A stretch of DNA of 22,209 nucleotides, from IMG/VR virus record IMGVR_UViG_3300010150_000203, positions 1 to 22,209 of that record; one strand, 5' to 3'. Under the pieces are notes generated by a model. That model saw only the letters and a list, made by a program, of their open reading frames with translations. It was not told where the DNA came from and searched no databases. Source of the stretch: a virus. This document shows positions 3,605-12,614 of this stretch, in pieces; within the stretch, counting starts at the first letter, position 1, and every line of letters starts with the position of its first letter. Both the position numbers and the translations under genes were made by a program.

Positions 3605-3868
3605 TTATTCTACTATAAAAATGCACTCGCCTGGGCATTCCTCAGCTGCTTCACGGACAAGATCTTCCTGACCAACAGGAACTCTTGCTAAACCCTCTTC
3701 ACCCTGTGGGTTACTATGTATTAAGCTAAATATTTGTAGTTCTCTAAAATTACCGACAATTTCTTGTACATACGCTAAACCATCGTTTTGCATAACAAAC
3801 ACATCTGGAGCTATTTCAGCACAAAGTCCATCACCAGTACAGAGATCTTGATCAATCCATACTTTCAT
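3605..3868 (-). CDS. Single-cluster ferredoxin ([4Fe-4S] or [3Fe-4S] type)
   Basis: 87 residues. The N-terminus KVWIDQDLCTGDGLCAEIAP has Cys10-x2-Asp13-x2-Cys16, and the C-terminus has ECPGECIFIV with Cys78-Pro and Cys82. This matches one-cluster ferredoxins of the Pyrococcus/Streptomyces kind, where C-x2-D-x2-C plus a distal Cys-Pro bind a [4Fe-4S] (Asp ligand) or [3Fe-4S] cluster. It is not the plant-type [2Fe-2S] ferredoxin known from cyanophages. The spacing from Cys16 to Cys78 is longer than usual, with an insertion around residues 48-65. Likely a cytoplasmic electron carrier. It follows the 246-aa DUF6065-like gene by 14 nt, so that protein is a candidate redox partner. The start has little Shine-Dalgarno, which suggests low or coupled translation. 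Confidence 0.85.
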   Translation of the reverse strand: MKVWIDQDLCTGDGLCAEIAPDVFVMQNDGLAYVQEIVGNFRELQIFSLIHSNPQGEEGLARVPVGQEDLVREAAEECPGECIFIVE

Positions 3869-3882
3869 AGTTATATGATAAC

Positions 3883-4623
3883 TTATTTTTTGTTTCTTCT
3901 AGTTATATCCCTATAGCCACCAGTAAATTTAGATCTAAGCCTAAAGCTCTCGTTATTAATAGTCTTATGATCATCTTCACTAAAAGTTGTAACATCTAAC
4001 TCTATTTTTTCCCTCTTAAAAGGAATTGCATGTAAAAAAGGCATCCCTCTTTTTAAAAGTATATCCCCCTCTGAGTGCCATATACTTGGAAAGTTAACTT
4101 GATGAAAACTGTCAGTTTCAACAATACCTGGTAATACAGTAAAGTTATCATTTTTGTGAAGTAGTGGTGGAATAAATAGTGTACTCCAACCAGGTGGTGT
4201 AAAAAAGAACCAAGGACTTGTAAATTTAACAGCTCGTTTATAATCTTTTTCATCAAAAGGATAAGTAGGAAGTTGTTCAAAGTCATGAAACTCTATATGA
4301 CTACTGTTTGTATTTATAGAATTAGATTCAAAATGAAAACTATCACCATGTCTTTGTACTAATAAGTCATACCACATTGGGATTATGTATCCTTGTGTAA
4401 AGTAATCAACTACAGCAGGGCATTTTTTAACTGTATGAGAATTGTAATCTTTAAGCATATCACCCATCTTAGGAAAGGGTTGTGCATGTAGCACTGCTAG
4501 ATCTAAGTTTAACTTTTGAAACCATTCAGGTATCATCTGACTAGCTGGTACTGGTGGTGCTATCTCTACTAACGGCTCGTCTATTGTAGCAAATCGCATT
4601 GTTTTAGTTTGAACCCATTTCAT
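3883..4623 (-). CDS. DUF6065-like protein, copy A
   Basis: 246 residues; family of unknown function that I associate from memory with DUF6065. Conserved blocks shared with the 271-aa paralogue: PEWF (32-35), KCP (67-69), GYIIPMW (78-84), TPPGWS (142-147), IVETD with His174 (167-174), RGMP (192-195) and PFKRE (201-205). Prolines, Trp and invariant His/Asp/Glu suggest a beta-rich, possibly metal-binding fold, but no catalytic chemistry is known to me. No signal peptide or membrane segment. The start overlaps the preceding oxygenase-like gene by ATGA, and the ferredoxin follows by 14 nt. An internal TATAAATA lies in the coding sequence and is judged fortuitous. Confidence 0.7.
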   Translation of the reverse strand: MKWVQTKTMRFATIDEPLVEIAPPVPASQMIPEWFQKLNLDLAVLHAQPFPKMGDMLKDYNSHTVKKCPAVVDYFTQGYIIPMWYDLLVQRHGDSFHFESNSINTNSSHIEFHDFEQLPTYPFDEKDYKRAVKFTSPWFFFTPPGWSTLFIPPLLHKNDNFTVLPGIVETDSFHQVNFPSIWHSEGDILLKRGMPFLHAIPFKREKIELDVTTFSEDDHKTINNESFRLRSKFTGGYRDITRRNKK

Positions 4624-5126
4624 AACTTATTCTCAAAAAACCAATGATCTGGTTCTGCAAAATGCAGAAATAACATTCCTACTCTATTCCAACTTGGAAC
4701 TGGAAAATCTTCTCGCCAGTGATCTTGTTCCTCACCATAAAAAGCTAGTGCCTCATTTTCGTCTAAATTATATTCTTGATCTTCTACTATTAGTGGCCAT
4801 TGTACATTTTGATACAAACACACATCAAGAGTATAAGTACATGCGTTTGTGTCTTTGTGTTTGTGTAATTTAGCATCTTCACCCTCATAATGAACAATAA
4901 GACCATAAGTAAATTTTAAAGTATCAGATCCAAATATTTCTTTAGCTTTATCTAATACTTCATCTGCATAATTTTTTATACTTGAATTTTGTTCACTTGA
5001 TTCTTCAAACCTACCAAATCCCTCAAAGTATTCAAAGTTCTTATAATTGTTATTTAGATAAGATTTTAAATGATTAAAAGATTGATGGTTTAATAGATCC
5101 TTAACAAGTTTTACTTCTTTAGCCAT
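4620..5126 (-). CDS. 2OG-Fe(II) oxygenase-like protein (short)
   Basis: 168 residues. The C-terminal half has the double-stranded beta-helix signature: LHKHKD (87-92; His90-x-Asp92 as the iron pair), TLDVCLYQN (99-107), ENEALAFYGEEQDHW (123-137; distal His136), then NRVGMLFLHFAEPDHWFF (147-164; Arg149 as candidate 2-oxoglutarate anchor). It is shorter than classical prolyl hydroxylases and unlike the two other oxygenases in this window, so it is a separate subfamily. Predicted reaction: 2-oxoglutarate-dependent hydroxylation of an unknown substrate in the cytoplasm. It overlaps the upstream gene by 16 nt and the downstream one by 4 nt, so the DUF6065-like and oxygenase proteins are made together. 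Confidence 0.7.
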   Translation of the reverse strand: MAKEVKLVKDLLNHQSFNHLKSYLNNNYKNFEYFEGFGRFEESSEQNSSIKNYADEVLDKAKEIFGSDTLKFTYGLIVHYEGEDAKLHKHKDTNACTYTLDVCLYQNVQWPLIVEDQEYNLDENEALAFYGEEQDHWREDFPVPSWNRVGMLFLHFAEPDHWFFENKL

Positions 5127-5935
5127 TTTTTCCTCGGCAGTAGTTTTTTAGGTCTTCTAGCTAAAGCGTCAGGATATAAAGTATTAGTTTCTCTTCTATT
5201 TACTGCTGATCCAACAATCATATTCCATCTTTCACTAAATGTTTCATTCCAGTCAACCCATTCAACTTTTACAGGCTTAGAGAAAAGTATATTAAACATT
5301 ACAGTATCGTGATTTAGCTCCAGTGTATCTTGTTTCGGATCAGTCCACTCAAACGCCCAAGATAAACCCCTAGACCAAGAATATATAGGCATAAAACCAC
5401 CAATCAAAGATATAGGTAGATTTTTTCCTGCGTTTCTATCACTAGGTACAATATCTAACCATACTTCTGGATCATCCGTAAAAAACATAAACGGCATAGT
5501 TATTTGCATGACAGGTTGCTCTGGATTAGCCCATGCTTCCTTTTCTTCCATAATAATGTCTCTAAAAGGTCCATGATGTTTTACTGCACCATGATAATTA
5601 GCTTGCATAGAATAACCACCAAATCGATCTACTTCATCAGCAAATTGATTTTGTGACAAGTTTACTTTTACATGACTGTAAGGAAAATACATTTCATACA
5701 ATCTGTTTCTCATAAACTGTGTTGAGACACAGCCATTAGGTGCTTTTACAAACTTTCTAGGCGCACCATAATTAATAATAGGTATACTGCTTTCCTCTTC
5801 GTGTTCTTTACCTACTGTATTTGCTAATGGTTTAGGTATAGTGAAAGCTACTCTTGGTAAATTTCTACTAGTTTCTCTGATTGGCTGACTCCATAAAGAT
5901 CCGATGTCAGGTATTTTTATTGGACACTTACTCAT
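5111..5935 (-). CDS. Unknown protein, distant relative of the DUF6065-like pair
   Basis: 274 residues. It starts MSKCPIKIPDIGSLW; a good ribosome site (AAGGAAGGA) lies upstream of ATG 5935, which overlaps the previous gene by 8 nt. The central part (about 140-235) has MFFTDDPEVWLDIVPS, LIGGFMPIYSWSRGL and FNILFSKPVKVEWVDW. The order FFT..P.W....P, then Gly/Phe strands, then a final Pro-Val strand parallels the FFTPPGWS...P..PFKRE layout of its two neighbours, so I infer remote homology and a shared fold. Function unknown; the C-terminus is strongly basic (RRPKKLLPRKKWLKK), which could bind nucleic acid or an acidic surface. Confidence 0.6.
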   Translation of the reverse strand: MSKCPIKIPDIGSLWSQPIRETSRNLPRVAFTIPKPLANTVGKEHEEESSIPIINYGAPRKFVKAPNGCVSTQFMRNRLYEMYFPYSHVKVNLSQNQFADEVDRFGGYSMQANYHGAVKHHGPFRDIIMEEKEAWANPEQPVMQITMPFMFFTDDPEVWLDIVPSDRNAGKNLPISLIGGFMPIYSWSRGLSWAFEWTDPKQDTLELNHDTVMFNILFSKPVKVEWVDWNETFSERWNMIVGSAVNRRETNTLYPDALARRPKKLLPRKKWLKK

Positions 5936-6743
5936 CTAATATTCCTTCCTTAGTCCATTGTTTTTTATTCTTTTGTGTGAGCCAACGATACCATCCATTT
6001 TGCCTAGTTCTTTCGGCAGCTCTACTTTTATCATAATAGTCTTTGTCTTGATCATCCATTTCTGCGACTTCTAATTTCTTTAGGGTTTCTCTTTTAAATG
6101 GAATTATTTGTATTAGTGGCATACCCTGTCTAAATGTTCTTTCACCCTGACCATGATATAAAAATGGAATATTCATTTGATGATAAGAGTCTGTTTCAAC
6201 GATACTAGGGAATATTTCTATGTCTATATTTCTGTGATACCACGGATCCATAACCATTATTGACCAACCAGGTGGAGTAATTATATCCCAGGGGTTCTCA
6301 AACTTTAAAGCTGTATGAAAGCTATGATCGTGTAACGGCATTTTACCTATAGATCTTGCATCGTGAAATGATATTGTGTTTTCAAATGCGTGCTTGTTAT
6401 ACCAATTTAAACCAGAATCTCTATCATGTGATATTTTAAGATCTAACCAAAGTGGTATGATGTAGCCCTCGTGCATAATATCTTTTACTGTAGGGCATTT
6501 TTTTAAACTATTATCTTTGTAAGGTACAGTATTCCAACTTTCGTCATGACCTTCACCATGATTTCCGTCTCTCATCTCAGACCACTCACGCTTTAGGTTC
6601 TTATACCAAGCAGGTATAAATTCTTTAGCTGGTCTAGGTGGTGCAAGATCTATATATTCTGATTTTTGTGTTAAAAATTTTATAGTATCAAATTCTACTT
6701 TGTGTTGTTTAGTTTCTAAAAATCTGTTGTACTTTTTCCCCAT
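5928..6743 (-). CDS. DUF6065-like protein, copy B
   Basis: 271 residues from ATG 6743. GTG 6746 is directly upstream, but AAAGG 6 nt before the ATG favours ATG. A clear paralogue of the 246-aa protein: KCP (82-84), GYIIPLW (93-99), TPPGWS (156-161), IVETD with His188 (181-188), QGMP (206-209) and PFKRE (215-219) occur in the same order and spacing. It has an extra His/Gly/Glu-rich insert near residue 60 (NHGEGHDESW) and a basic, aromatic C-tail. Function unknown. Two copies plus a distant third within 3 kb, mixed with 2OG oxygenases, point to a joint pathway or to heteromeric assembly. Confidence 0.7.
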   Translation of the reverse strand: MGKKYNRFLETKQHKVEFDTIKFLTQKSEYIDLAPPRPAKEFIPAWYKNLKREWSEMRDGNHGEGHDESWNTVPYKDNSLKKCPTVKDIMHEGYIIPLWLDLKISHDRDSGLNWYNKHAFENTISFHDARSIGKMPLHDHSFHTALKFENPWDIITPPGWSIMVMDPWYHRNIDIEIFPSIVETDSYHQMNIPFLYHGQGERTFRQGMPLIQIIPFKRETLKKLEVAEMDDQDKDYYDKSRAAERTRQNGWYRWLTQKNKKQWTKEGILDE

Positions 6744-6753
6744 CACTTACCTT

Positions 6754-7461
6754 TCATTCCAACAATAATGTTGCTGTCATCACAGCTCTTAAGTTTTCTT
6801 CATTTTCGTCAACATCAACAGTATTAAATGATATTGTGTCACCAGTTTCCCAGTGAATTATCTTAATAGATGTAAAATTGTCTCTTAGATACTGTATTGC
6901 AGTGTTAATGCTACTAATTTGATCAGGTTTCCATTCAATGACAACTTTTATACCAGAATTATCACCTATAAGTGTTTCAGCGCCTTTTAAGACATCTACT
7001 TCTTTACCATTAGCACTTATGACTAGAAGATCACAATTTGCTAAAAGTAAGCTATCAATAGTTATAATATCTGTTTCTTGTGTGCTGTCACCAAAGATCA
7101 TATCTAAAATGCCACCAGATTTATTATCATCGAAAAAATACATAGTGCCTGTACCATTTGTATCAGAGCAGGCTTTTTCTATATTTGTTTCGTCAGAAAA
7201 GTTTTGATCTAGTATTGCAAAACGATCTGCATTAGGCTCAATGTTTGTAGTGCTTACGCCAGCAGACTCTAATATCCCTGTAGCTACACCACATCCAGCA
7301 CCTACAATGCAAGCATCTGTAAAATCGCTTGCATTATCTACTAAGTAAAACTCTAATGACGGATTAATGTGATCTAGATCCCCCACTTTACCATATTCAG
7401 ATTTATCATTTTCATCTATATTTATAGTGATACCATTTCTAAATGTTTGTGATTGTGTCAT
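6754..7461 (-). CDS. FkbM-like SAM-dependent methyltransferase
   Basis: 235 residues. Rossmann-type features: the SAM-binding loop CIVGAGCGVATGILESAG (51-68), an acidic residue at the end of the next strand (NIEPN, Glu75), then an FkbM-style C-terminal block: TIDSLLLANCDLLVISANG (134-152), KEVDVLKGAETLI (153-165) and VVIEW (173-177). In typical FkbM proteins the segment reads D-L-L-K-I-D-V-E-G; here it is DLLVISANG, so the usual Asp is absent and activity may be altered. Predicted O-methylation of a glycan or small molecule, or possibly of a fibre protein in this context. The ribosome site is weak. It sits between the oxygenases and the DUF6065-like genes. Confidence 0.65.
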   Translation of the reverse strand: MTQSQTFRNGITINIDENDKSEYGKVGDLDHINPSLEFYLVDNASDFTDACIVGAGCGVATGILESAGVSTTNIEPNADRFAILDQNFSDETNIEKACSDTNGTGTMYFFDDNKSGGILDMIFGDSTQETDIITIDSLLLANCDLLVISANGKEVDVLKGAETLIGDNSGIKVVIEWKPDQISSINTAIQYLRDNFTSIKIIHWETGDTISFNTVDVDENEENLRAVMTATLLLE

Positions 7462-7473
7462 AGCTACATCTTA

Positions 7474-8166
7474 CTACATTAAATCTATTTTTACATTTTG
7501 TGGTAAATACATAGGCGGCAACCCATCAAAATCAATAGTGTGTCCTAACCATGTAACAATTGCATACTTACTGCCTTTTATGACAGGCATTGCTTTGTGT
7601 GAGTAAGCCCAATTACTTGGAAACAGCACTAAAGCTGGTTTATCTGGTTTAATCATTTCATCAAAGTGTGTAAAGTATGTGCCGCCACCCTCGTAATCAC
7701 TAGGATTCAAAAGTACTAAAGCTGATAGATGACGAGGATTATGTGGTGCATAGTCACAGTGAGCTTTATACTCTTGACCACCTTGATACCTCAACAATGT
7801 ATACCCCTCATCAAAATGTATACTTATTTCATACTTTTCGCAGTAATTGTTGACATACTCTAATAATTTATTAGAAAGCAGTTCATTAATATTTTTAAGA
7901 TTTTTTATGTAGTCTTCTTTATTATTTTTAACAGCTTCCCTTATAAGTCTTGCTTCGCCTGGTTCATTTGCATATTTGCTTATGGGAAACAATTGATTAG
8001 TTCTTATGTTTCCACCTTTATGACCTTTGCCAATACCAGCATTTTCAAAACCAAGTTTAAAGTCTTTATCTTGATCTATTTCCTCAATAGCATCTATAAT
8101 CTTTTGTGCTTGATCTTGCGACAAAAAGTCTTCATAAACTTCCACACAACCCATCGATAGTTTCAT
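7474..8166 (-). CDS. Prolyl-4-hydroxylase-like 2OG-Fe(II) oxygenase
   Basis: 230 residues with a textbook P4H core: YTLLRYQGGQEYKAHCDYAP (122-141) supplies the iron pair His136-x-Asp138; LSALVLLNPSDYEGGGTYF (147-165) gives the GG turn; FPSNWAYSHKAMPV (182-195) gives distal His190; and GSKYAIVTWL (198-207) has Lys200, where prolyl hydroxylases use Lys to hold 2-oxoglutarate. The reaction is O2- and 2OG-dependent hydroxylation, likely of a protein side chain or small molecule. ATGA overlap with the preceding oxygenase implies tight co-translation. Such oxygenases are known core genes of marine T4-like phages; the true substrate is unknown. Confidence 0.88.
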   Translation of the reverse strand: MKLSMGCVEVYEDFLSQDQAQKIIDAIEEIDQDKDFKLGFENAGIGKGHKGGNIRTNQLFPISKYANEPGEARLIREAVKNNKEDYIKNLKNINELLSNKLLEYVNNYCEKYEISIHFDEGYTLLRYQGGQEYKAHCDYAPHNPRHLSALVLLNPSDYEGGGTYFTHFDEMIKPDKPALVLFPSNWAYSHKAMPVIKGSKYAIVTWLGHTIDFDGLPPMYLPQNVKIDLM

Positions 8167-8879
8167 ATAATTTGTCTCCTTGTTAGTTCTTCAGGGGGTA
8201 CTCCGTCTAAAAACGAATCTAGATCAAAACCACTGGAACAGGCAACAAGAAAGGCTGACTTTCTACCATTTAATAAAGGGGTTGTTGCGTGTGAATAAAT
8301 AAAAGCACTTGGCATAATTACCACACTGCCTGCTGGTGGTTTGTAAGGATCGTGTTCAAAGTATTCAAAATCTAAAGCGCCACCTTGATGTTTATCAGTC
8401 AAATAAGTTAAAGCTGTAATTCTTCTTAAAAATGGTGCGTTCCAGAACCTACCTGTTGCAGGATTTCTGGTTGATCTATTATCGCCATGATAATTCATAT
8501 ACTTAGGTGGCTTATAAGTAATGTACTGATATTGCTCCATCCAATGTATTTCATCTTTTACCATTGGGTATATTTCTTTATAATTATTTATTTTGTCTAA
8601 AGTGTTTCTTTGTACTTGCCAAAAGTATTCTTTACTTGCTTTTTCATTAAACTCTATTTCAGGATCGAATCTTATAGGACCGTTCTCATTTTTGACTGTT
8701 TGATAATTACCACCTCTATCATATTCATTGTTATCAATGACTTTTTGTTTCCAACGATCAACTTCTGCATTCATAGTCTCTACAACACCTTCAGGGACTT
8801 CTATACAATTCTCGTAGGCTACTACACCTTCAACTATTTTTTTGGGTTCTACTTCTTTCCATAATTTACTTAAAACCAT
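8163..8879 (-). CDS. 2OG-Fe(II) oxygenase family protein
   Basis: 238 residues. The N-terminal half is charged and helical. The DSBH core has YQYITYKPPKYMNYHGDN (117-134; His131-x-Asp133), ITALTYLTDKHQGGALDF (154-171; GG turn), GSVVIMPSAFIYSHATTP (184-201; distal His197) and GRKSAFLVAC (205-214; Arg206 as candidate 2OG ligand). All four key positions are present, so it is probably active. It differs from the next gene in having Arg, not Lys, at the 2OG site, so the two are not simple duplicates. The start is a TAATG overlap with the 155-aa gene. A role in modifying virion proteins or host molecules is inferred from position only. Confidence 0.85.
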   Translation of the reverse strand: MVLSKLWKEVEPKKIVEGVVAYENCIEVPEGVVETMNAEVDRWKQKVIDNNEYDRGGNYQTVKNENGPIRFDPEIEFNEKASKEYFWQVQRNTLDKINNYKEIYPMVKDEIHWMEQYQYITYKPPKYMNYHGDNRSTRNPATGRFWNAPFLRRITALTYLTDKHQGGALDFEYFEHDPYKPPAGSVVIMPSAFIYSHATTPLLNGRKSAFLVACSSGFDLDSFLDGVPPEELTRRQII

Positions 8880-10932: not shown

Positions 10933-11247
10933 CTAACTACTTGGATCTGTATCTGTCGCTGCAATATTAAACACAGTAACGACTGTTCCTGCTGTTGCAG
11001 AACCAGATCCACCTGTTCCAGCCGCAGCTGCTAATGTTAAACCTGACGGCAAAGGTTTAGTTCCTGTTACAAATACTACTGCGCCTCCACCAGCATTATA
11101 AGATTGAGAAGCTGTACCACCAGATCCACCAGCACCACCAGGGTGATAGTTTGTTGGGTTGCTATCGTTGTTTGTCGGATTATTGTTACCACCATAAGAA
11201 TACCCATAAGAATATCCGTAAGAGTATCCGTAGCTATAACCATATGA
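10933..11247 (-). other. In-frame C-terminal continuation of the adhesin-like gene beyond a TAG codon
   Basis: After the TAG at 11250-11248 the same frame stays open for 104 codons to a second TAG (10935-10933). It continues the repeat directly (SYGYSYGYSYGYSYGY), then NNPTNNDSNPTN, a Gly-rich stretch, and GGGAVVFVTGTKPLPSGLTL. That last block aligns with GGGVIFIISQDLPLTGIL at the C-terminus of the 219-aa paralogue. No in-frame ATG or ribosome site restarts translation, so this part is made only by readthrough or suppression, or is a lost C-terminus after a nonsense mutation. The AGGAG for the next gene follows immediately. Confidence 0.8.
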
Positions 11248-11560
11248 CTAATTATTACCTGGATATGAGTAGTTATTACCAGGATATGAATAGTTACTAC
11301 CAGGATAACTATGCGTATGTGCATAGTGGTAATGATAATAACCTGTTGCATAGTTATTTATGGGTGGACTTGGATGCCAGTGATAATGTGTGTGAGAACC
11401 ATAATTTGTTGGGTTAGATCCGTAATTAGTACTATTACTACCTGAGTTTGAGGGGTTTGAGCCACTGTTAGATCCATAGTTTGCACCATTGTTGGCACCA
11501 TAGTTTGCACCATAGTTTGTTGGATTAGTATTACCAGGATAAGAATAGTTATTACCTGGT
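11188..11560 (-). repeat. Tyr/Asn/Gly/His-rich tandem repeats in the adhesin-like gene
   Basis: Low-complexity coding repeats. From the N-terminal side: NNYSYPGNTNPTNYGANYGA, then NYG/NSG/NPTNYG units; a His-rich segment (HTHYHWHP, YYHYHYAHTH; 11311-11394); three 7-residue units (SYPGSNY, SYPGNNY, SYPGNN); the TAG; then four SYGY units. The DNA units are 21 bp and 12 bp, suited to slipped-strand change or recombination. The 219-aa paralogue lacks this insert. Confidence 0.85.
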
Positions 11561-12285
11561 GTGGATGCGTCTGGGGCTGGTGCGCCATCTGTACCTTGTG
11601 AGCTAGCAGTAGTATCATCTGCGTCTGCTCTAATTGTTCCATCTCCTGAAACAGCTTTAGCTACTACTAAAACTACTCCACCACCTACTGCACCTGTACC
11701 TGCTGTTGCTGAGTTACCATCTGCGCCTTTTCCACCATCTGCACCTACAACTTGATAATCAGCCCAACCAGAGTCTCCTCCGTCTGCGCCACCACTAGCG
11801 TTTGCTGTTATCGCACCATCGGATGCGCCTGATCCACCACCTAAAAATTTAAAAGATTCAGTAGATTGATCAAACTTTTGCCCAGCTAGAGCTACTGACA
11901 AGTTAAAGAAATCGTTTTCACCATCAAAAAAAGTATTACCAGAGTGTTCTCCGTCTGTTTGTTCTGAAGATCTACCACCTAAAGTGTCTGTAGCATCTGT
12001 ACCTTTATCAAAACCACCTTTAAGTGTTCCTGCTGTTTCTTTACTTGTAAATCTACCTATACGAGATGTAGCGTCTGCAAATGTCAATGTACCTCTTACA
12101 AAAACACGATACCCATTAGTATCTAATGTGACATTGGCGTTTATCGATAAATCGTTGTAATACATATCACGAGACAATGTCGTATTTGAAGCAAGGGTAA
12201 CATCACCATCTTGCCCATAACCATATATCTCATCGCCACCTAATCTATCCAAAAAGATTGGCTCAGGTACTTGTATTTCAGGCAT
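11248..12285 (-). CDS. Glycine-rich adhesin-like fibre protein, ending at TAG within a repeat
   Basis: 345 residues from ATG 12285, chosen because it forms a TAATG overlap with the preceding stop; a frame extending to 12339 would sit inside that gene. Order: N-terminal block (residues 14-55, YGYGQDGDVTLASNTTL...GYRVFVRGTLTF) shared with the 219-aa paralogue; Gly/Ala/Asp-rich middle (about 150-210) ending GGGVVLVVAKAVSGDGTIRA; then Asn/Tyr/Gly repeats and a His-rich segment at 298-325. The TAG stop replaces the Tyr of the repeat NNY-SYPG. The frame continues to 10933 with the expected C-terminal block, so the intended product is probably about 450 residues. Likely a host-receptor adhesin at the fibre tip; alternating His residues recall the HxH iron sites of T4 gp37. 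Confidence 0.75.
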   Translation of the reverse strand: MPEIQVPEPIFLDRLGGDEIYGYGQDGDVTLASNTTLSRDMYYNDLSINANVTLDTNGYRVFVRGTLTFADATSRIGRFTSKETAGTLKGGFDKGTDATDTLGGRSSEQTDGEHSGNTFFDGENDFFNLSVALAGQKFDQSTESFKFLGGGSGASDGAITANASGGADGGDSGWADYQVVGADGGKGADGNSATAGTGAVGGGVVLVVAKAVSGDGTIRADADDTTASSQGTDGAPAPDASTPGNNYSYPGNTNPTNYGANYGANNGANYGSNSGSNPSNSGSNSTNYGSNPTNYGSHTHYHWHPSPPINNYATGYYHYHYAHTHSYPGSNYSYPGNNYSYPGNN

Positions 12286-12614
12286 TAGCTTACCTCTACA
12301 CCAGAAACTTGTATATTTACTGAAGTTGCTGCTGAACATTTTGCAGCAACAGAAGCATTAGCAGGTATAACCATAGCTAAGTCAATAACTGTAGTTGTAT
12401 TTGCTTGAACAGTTGTATCACCAAAAATGATATGTTGATCACCAGTTGTATCCCCTGTAGGAATAAGTTTGATCTCCACTGTTCTGTCTGTTGCTGTATA
12501 GTTAGCTAACATAATTTGCTTAATAATACACTTGTTAGAATTACTGAAAATTTCTGCTTCAGATGTTCCAAGTGCAGTTACTTCGGCTAACTCAGCTGCG
12601 TTATATACTGCCAT
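12285..12614 (-). CDS. Small virion beta protein, copy 2
   Basis: 109 residues, AGGAG upstream of ATG 12614. Mostly Thr/Val/Ala-rich beta strands: KCIIKQIMLANYTATDRTVE, then a loop with GDTTGDQHIIFGDTTV, VQANTTTVIDLAMVIPANAS and a closing strand SVNIQVSGVEVS. The length and strand order are the same as in the other 109-aa protein (14065-14394), including a final Ile/Val strand ending VEVS versus VEIT. A trimeric fibre cap, collar or decoration role is plausible; no specific family is recognised. Confidence 0.7.
   Translation of the reverse strand: MAVYNAAELAEVTALGTSEAEIFSNSNKCIIKQIMLANYTATDRTVEIKLIPTGDTTGDQHIIFGDTTVQANTTTVIDLAMVIPANASVAAKCSAATSVNIQVSGVEVS

Follow-up and report, generated by a model that had tools for sequence, protein, structure and literature searches.

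A conserved phage gene island encoding a ferredoxin, an oxygenase-like protein and DUF6065-like proteins with a predicted dUTPase fold

Gene content and conservation of the island

We analyzed a virus contig of 22,209 bases from IMG/VR (IMGVR_UViG_3300010150_000203), referred to in full as the window, for a run of five genes encoding a ferredoxin, two proteins resembling Pfam family DUF6065 (DUF_A and DUF_B), a further protein located between them (the third protein), and a short protein resembling 2-oxoglutarate (2OG) oxygenases (OG168). A first-pass annotation made from the sequence had described these genes as one overlapping run and a possible redox modification system. The run itself was borne out: all five genes are on the minus strand, and successive gaps from the ferredoxin to DUF_A are 14, -4, -16, and -8 nucleotides. 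An FkbM-type methyltransferase gene lies 7 nucleotides upstream of DUF_A, and it is preceded on the same strand by two 2OG-Fe(II) oxygenase genes (Table 1). None of the five island proteins had a match in NCBIfam.

We found 51 viral loci with a close relative of DUF_A, and the order DUF_A, third protein, DUF_B, and ferredoxin was kept in 48 of the 48 loci that were informative (i.e., running at least 4.5 kb past the DUF_A start). OG168 was present in 39 of these and absent in nine, and nine had an extra copy of DUF_B (DUF_B'). The loci are partly related, with 35 distinct full-length DUF_A proteins forming 21 clusters at 95% identity, and their identity to the window's DUF_A ranged from 63 to 99%. 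The ratio of nonsynonymous to synonymous substitution rates was 0.08-0.12 for DUF_A, the third protein, DUF_B, and the ferredoxin in a single comparison with locus L004, which argues against chance reading frames. The third protein occurred in 57 viral loci, and those on comparable contigs all belonged to the window's lineage. It was not found in cellular genomes by the patterns used in a pattern search, and neither it nor the ferredoxin had a tblastn match at 1e-5 in 50,697 phage records. The island is a real, ordered, and conserved gene set.

Table 1. Positions of the island genes, nearby features of the window, and the cassette of a second phage lineage
Feature	Position	Strand	Description	Evidence
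Ferredoxin	3605..3868	-	Single-cluster, CxxDxxC...CPGEC (Asp-ligand type), actinobacterial host type	Fer4_15, E 1.8e-18
DUF_B	3883..4623	-	DUF6065-like, 246 residues, paralogue of DUF_A	phrog_7084, 1.8e-57
OG168	4620..5126	-	2OG-oxygenase-like, 168 residues, HxD...H	Invariant H90, D92, H136
Third protein	5111..5935	-	274 residues, predicted dUTPase fold, lacking the acidic motif-3 residues (by eye)	Model
DUF_A	5928..6746	-	DUF6065-like, 272 residues, predicted dUTPase fold	GTG start; ATG at 6743
FkbM-type methyltransferase	6754..7461	-		PF05050, 28.0 bits (cut-off 22.7)
2OG-Fe(II) oxygenase	7474..8166	-	230 residues	PF13640, 54.4 bits (cut-off 27)
2OG-Fe(II) oxygenase	8163..8879	-	238 residues	PF13640, 28.9 bits (cut-off 27)
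Fibre-like protein	11248..12339	-	Asn/Tyr/Ser/Gly repeat tail (PGNNYSY, NPTNYG)	Tandem repeats
Cassette of G031	L308 12642-17965		Four 2OG oxygenases, DUF6065, 250-residue protein, tryptophan halogenase	Behind tail fibres

Family relationships and predicted fold

DUF_A and DUF_B were clear paralogues, as annotated (hhalign 100%), and both matched phrog_7084 with E values of 1.7e-55 or better. Their resemblance to Pfam DUF6065 (PF19541) was borderline, at 26.4 bits for DUF_A and 21.8 bits for DUF_B against a cut-off of 26.6, and a six-frame search scored DUF_A above the cut-off at 27 bits. The two belong to phrog_7084 and stand at the border of PF19541, in a phage-like branch that is distant from the family's bacterial core; most core members scored below E 1e-88 in a class-wide search. 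The motifs TPPGWS and VETD..H, named as conserved in the first-pass annotation, were largely upheld among 43 relatives, with seven positions kept in at least 90% (T157, P158, G160, S162, T185, D186, and H189), except that the Glu of VETD..H alternates with Asp. DUF6065 occurs in haloviruses, cyanophages, actinophages, and Alphaproteobacteria and is so far without an assigned function; our literature search found no paper naming it.

An AlphaFold model of DUF_A built from the 43-sequence alignment had a predicted local distance difference test score (pLDDT) of 82.5 and a predicted template modelling score of 0.79. The best matches of this model in a Foldseek search of the PDB were dUTPases and one dCTP deaminase. 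A second structure comparison listed dUTPases in 50 of 50 PDB matches, with Z-scores of 8.8-9.7 and root-mean-square deviations of 2.8-6.5 over 111-140 residues. The model of the third protein was weak (pLDDT 67.5), and the matches listed for it were again dUTPases in 50 of 50 cases (Z 5.9-7.3); a Z-score below 8 could by itself mean a common arrangement, though this list was uniform. Each structure list comprises the best 50 PDB matches, and further families are possible beyond those. These models suggest that DUF6065 very probably has a dUTPase fold, which DUF_B would share with DUF_A by paralogy. The third protein, called a distant third paralogue in the first-pass annotation, had no PF19541 match and sequence profiles gave only 0.3-0.4%, providing no link to DUF6065, so that its relationship stands by predicted fold and not by sequence profile.

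dUTPase motif 3 reads GxIDxDYxG and includes the catalytic Asp and a Tyr on the uracil side. Searching PDB sequences with the DUF6065 profile at E values up to 10 returned one match, the dUTPase 3p48, at a weak E of 2.4. The alignment spans motif 3 to motif 4, placing Glu184 on the motif-3 Asp and Asp186 on the second Asp. The motif-3 Tyr is lost (Ser in DUF_A), the Gly and Gln of motif 4 are kept, and the motif-4 Arg is replaced by Pro. DUF6065 resembles the dUTPase/dCTP deaminase superfamily (PF00692) in its predicted beta-clip fold, its acidic-x-Asp at motif 3, and its motif-4 Gly and Gln. It differs in the replaced Tyr and Arg, in the third protein's lack of the acidic residues, and in that PF00692 was not among the Pfam matches of DUF_A, DUF_B, or the third protein at E ≤ 1. 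Since Glu184 and Asp186 fall on dUTPase motif 3, VETD..H is most simply read as an altered nucleotide-pocket motif rather than as a 2-His-1-carboxylate iron site, and an iron site at the Glu/Asp/His positions was set aside on this alignment. We also dropped a dCTP deaminase reading, as the catalytic Glu of that enzyme's motif was without a counterpart by eye.

The short oxygenase-like protein in the run was corroborated by its residues, although it had no Pfam family at E ≤ 1. H90-x-D92 and H136, the pattern of an HxD...H iron triad, were invariant in 18 aligned sequences, and the profile had no meaningful sequence relative in the PDB. OG168 matched phrog_2954 with an E value of 7.7e-13. Both phrog_2954 and phrog_3531 are labelled ferrochelatase, yet the matching protein has an oxygenase-like motif and the label may be wrong.

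Repeat proteins in DUF6065 neighbourhoods

Bacterial members of the phage-like branch often adjoin repeat proteins. An Asn-Ser repeat protein was present in nine of the first 14 bacterial loci, within 1 kb in eight and about 4 kb away in L270. These (NSSS)n proteins near phage-like DUF6065 of Proteobacteria looked secreted (L262-L264, L266-L270, and L273), and genes resembling extracytoplasmic function sigma and anti-sigma factors were seen by eye close to some of them. A second set of ten bacterial loci was taken from the class-wide search for low DUF6065 scores. Its count of 0/10 refuted the NSSS repeat as a universal partner of DUF6065. Yet four of the nine usable loci in this set had DUF6065 17-141 bp behind a repeat protein (L314, L315, L317, and L318). 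These short, precursor-like proteins have two to about ten repeats, with units including KVKLGMMAPAFGKS and KVRLGNMSPAFKV.

We counted tandem repeats of coding period within 1 kb of DUF6065, defined by a Tandem Repeats Finder (TRF) score of at least 60 and a period of 9 or more that is divisible by 3. Such repeats were present at 11 of 23 bacterial loci, with one broken match (L323) left out and with L314 and L315, whose repeats TRF missed, scored as negative. The same rule gave 0/10 at core DUF6065 loci and 2.6% across 20 random 20-kb stretches from the same genomes (binomial P = 4.5e-12 for 11/23 versus 2.6%, ignoring relatedness). The arrangement in L314, L315, L317, and L318 resembles multi-core precursor systems of ribosomally synthesized and post-translationally modified peptides (RiPPs) in that DUF6065 stands behind a short multi-repeat protein. 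It differs in that no known RiPP enzyme was recognized nearby when genes were scanned by eye. Precursor-like repeats adjoin DUF6065 in bacteria, and none adjoins it in the window. The predicted fold, together with a repeat-peptide neighbourhood that exceeds both random places and the control branch, makes the orphan DUF6065 a family open to testing, and it is here more than in the redox idea that its main interest lies.

Phage neighbourhoods feature repeat-rich fibres and modifying enzymes. The fibre-like protein of the window has an N-terminus resembling the Asn/Gly-rich protein HF2_490 (hhalign 90% over 51 columns), and the DUF6065 gene of halovirus HF2 is three genes away from HF2_490. The homologues listed for the fibre protein contain segments of 60 residues in which Asn, Ser, Gly, Tyr, Thr, Pro, and His together account for 95% or more. 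The fibre gene encodes 363 residues in the window versus 468 in its relative in L002, which is 96% identical, and its frame stops inside tandem repeats (11195-11307), where slippage, phase variation, or assembly error is possible. On a phage-like contig in a Chitinophagaceae metagenome-assembled genome (L272), a fibre-like protein with PFGFT-type repeats (751-1902) is directly upstream of DUF6065 (1911-2645), after which a ribonucleotide-reductase-like gene was recognized by eye.

A second actinophage lineage (record G031 and three relatives) has a fibre, two genes, a 2OG oxygenase, DUF6065, and a 250-residue protein (p250) in succession. Where contigs reach far enough, the cassette continues with a tryptophan halogenase (Trp_halogenase, E 2.1e-106) and then three 2OG proteins. 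This nearness of DUF6065 to Trp_halogenase resembles the neighbourhoods of phage flavin-dependent halogenases such as cyanophage VirX1. The window's lineage differs, with no halogenase in 16 records. An impression by eye that p250 is a partner like the third protein was not counted, as sequence profiles linked p250 neither to the third protein (0.6%) nor to DUF6065 (2.3%).

We propose that the island is part of a fibre- or peptide-tailoring cassette behind the tail fibres of a marine actinobacteriophage lineage. As a whole, this mechanism is tentative and falls a little short of an even chance. DUF_A, the third protein, and DUF_B would form dUTPase-like trimers, perhaps mixed ones, that bind or act on low-complexity repeats of Asn, Ser, Gly, and Tyr, and the fibre protein of the window is a possible substrate. 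The 2OG oxygenases would hydroxylate the repeat polypeptide and the FkbM protein would methylate it. Taken separately, binding of repeat polypeptides by DUF6065, or action on them, is plausible to a similar degree. We regard as rather doubtful the broader proposal that DUF6065 is a new peptide-tailoring or peptide-presenting class on the dUTPase fold, with precursors such as (NSSS)n, KVRLGNMSPAFKV, and KVKLGMMAPAFGKS as its substrates in bacteria and fibre repeat tails in phages, where two or three paralogues would assemble into mixed trimers and pass the repeats on to 2OG oxygenases, halogenases, or methyltransferases. If true, a dUTPase-fold family would join peptide and fibre modification, and the small multi-repeat proteins would offer substrates for direct assays. 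The modification pathway suggested by the first-pass annotation thus keeps a plausible role, given the additional 2OG oxygenases and FkbM gene adjoining the island and the combination of 2OG oxygenases, DUF6065, and halogenase in the second lineage, though a redox partnership fed by the ferredoxin is unlikely.

Several observations weigh against a tailoring cassette. The repeat fibre is about 5 kb upstream of the cassette in the window rather than adjacent. DUF6065 genes of other phages (L106, L107, and L111-L120) do not adjoin fibres, and the model of the third protein is weak. Twelve of the 23 bacterial loci were without a TRF repeat within 1 kb, the loci are phylogenetically dependent, and the association had first been spotted among the initial 14 loci, ahead of any count. 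Finally, every informative locus of this lineage keeps the ferredoxin next to DUF_B or DUF_B', which fits a partnership equally well.

We considered whether the dUTPase-fold proteins could instead be structural, as a trimeric fibre chaperone or a virion component without chemistry of its own. Beta-clip decoration proteins are known, DUF6065 is behind or near fibre genes in the window, HF2, G031, and L272, and the absence of a PF00692 match and loss of the motif-3 Tyr would suit such a role. Bacterial members adjoin small repeat peptides without a fibre, however, and the conserved T-D..H motif suggests a pocket, making this alternative unlikely. Somewhat less likely still is that the proteins are nucleotide-handling relatives of dUTPase or dCTP deaminase, with an altered substrate or with roles as nucleotide sensors or in counter-defence. 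The predicted fold and the resemblance across motifs 3 and 4 are consistent with nucleotide handling, and no ordinary dUTPase was found in the 16 records of the window's lineage, all of which may be fragments. Nevertheless, DUF_A has no PF00692 match, and it would be odd for a nucleotide enzyme to occur as several adjacent, divergent copies among oxygenases and, in bacteria, beside repeat peptides.

Lower again we place an accidental run of unrelated accessory genes behind the fibres, with their order kept only by common descent. Accessory genes of tail modules are usually mosaic, and both the third protein (57 loci) and the four-gene order were seen in one lineage only. Such an accident is at odds with overlapping genes whose order holds down to 63% DUF_A identity, and with the second lineage that also has 2OG oxygenases and DUF6065 behind fibres.

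Origin and distribution of the ferredoxin

The one-cluster ferredoxin was identified correctly from the outset, with a Fer4_15 match of 67.4 bits against a cut-off of 22.4. Residues C10, D13, C16, and C78 were invariant in 17 ferredoxin sequences, and we presume them to be the cluster ligands by analogy to Pyrococcus ferredoxin. The nearest solved sequence was 1siz. Homologues matched in 64 of 198 actinobacterial genomes, the best being 71-76% identical and sharing the CTGDGLC motif, whereas many phage copies have a longer loop and adjoin DUF_B. By eye, the actinobacterial homologue adjoins a proteasome-ATPase, Pup-ligase, or TrmI-like gene in nine of 12 loci. Pfam confirmed a proteasomal ATPase in the three loci checked (L351, L358, and L359). 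In L351 it also confirmed a Pup ligase together with a TrmI-like protein, and in L353 the neighbour of the ferredoxin is a SufB/D-core protein. The Pup-proteasome/TrmI neighbourhood was observed in L351, L352, L358, L359, and L361.

The ferredoxin profile matched at least 583 viral stretches, 80 of which were listed. At 22 of the listed loci, all outside the window's lineage, no other cassette gene was near except for one weak FkbM match. Searching whole records revealed DUF6065 in one of the 22, a weak match in G031, where the ferredoxin (41.0 kb) and DUF6065 (63.6 kb) are 22 kb apart. Conversely, a Fer4_15 ferredoxin was present in 0/19 DUF6065 phage records outside the window's lineage and in 0/3 additional contigs with the G031-type cassette, one of which (G653) has 108,687 bases; the records behind all three counts may be fragments. 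A recurring DUF6065 and ferredoxin neighbourhood was therefore found within one lineage and not outside of it.

WhiB, a regulator of actinobacteria, was present in 11 of 38 ferredoxin-bearing records, comprising 5/16 from the window's lineage and 6/22 others (one below the cut-off). Its occurrence in both groups therefore indicates actinobacterial hosts. PMC7771536 describes WhiB in sequences of phages that came from single cells of Ca. Actinomarinales, and our literature listing contained no title linking Actinomarinales phages with ferredoxin. The ferredoxin looks like host-derived cargo of actinobacteriophages because of its 71-76% identity to actinobacterial proteins, the co-occurrence of WhiB, and its separation from DUF6065 elsewhere. 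It is probably not a dedicated partner of DUF6065, and during infection it may meet electron or Fe-S demands of the kind the host has, with keeping the iron enzymes reduced as its most specific role. The case illustrates how finding a ferredoxin of host type next to enzymes can misdirect a functional reading.

A redox partnership between the ferredoxin and DUF6065 is accordingly unlikely, and least probable among the alternatives is a redox modification complex with the ferredoxin as dedicated electron donor of DUF_A, the third protein, and DUF_B: the four-gene order is fixed in 48/48 loci while OG168 and DUF_B' vary, and all four genes were under purifying selection in one comparison, but the predicted dUTPase fold is not known to have a redox precedent, DUF6065 elsewhere lacks the ferredoxin (0/19, and 0/3 relatives of G031), and the ferredoxin lacks DUF6065 in 21/22. 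The same fold and separation of genes outside the lineage (0/19, 1/22, and 0/3) spoke against the suggestion of the first-pass annotation that DUF6065-like proteins are the ferredoxin's electron acceptors.

Other genes of the lineage were also observed. A 412-residue protein at 1697-2935 had no Pfam match at E 0.01; it is common to the whole lineage and has a metallophosphoesterase-like GD..GNH..GHxH pattern by eye. An 85-kb relative (G001, L253-L257) has genes for several DNA methylases as well as for an S-adenosylmethionine synthetase and WhiB.

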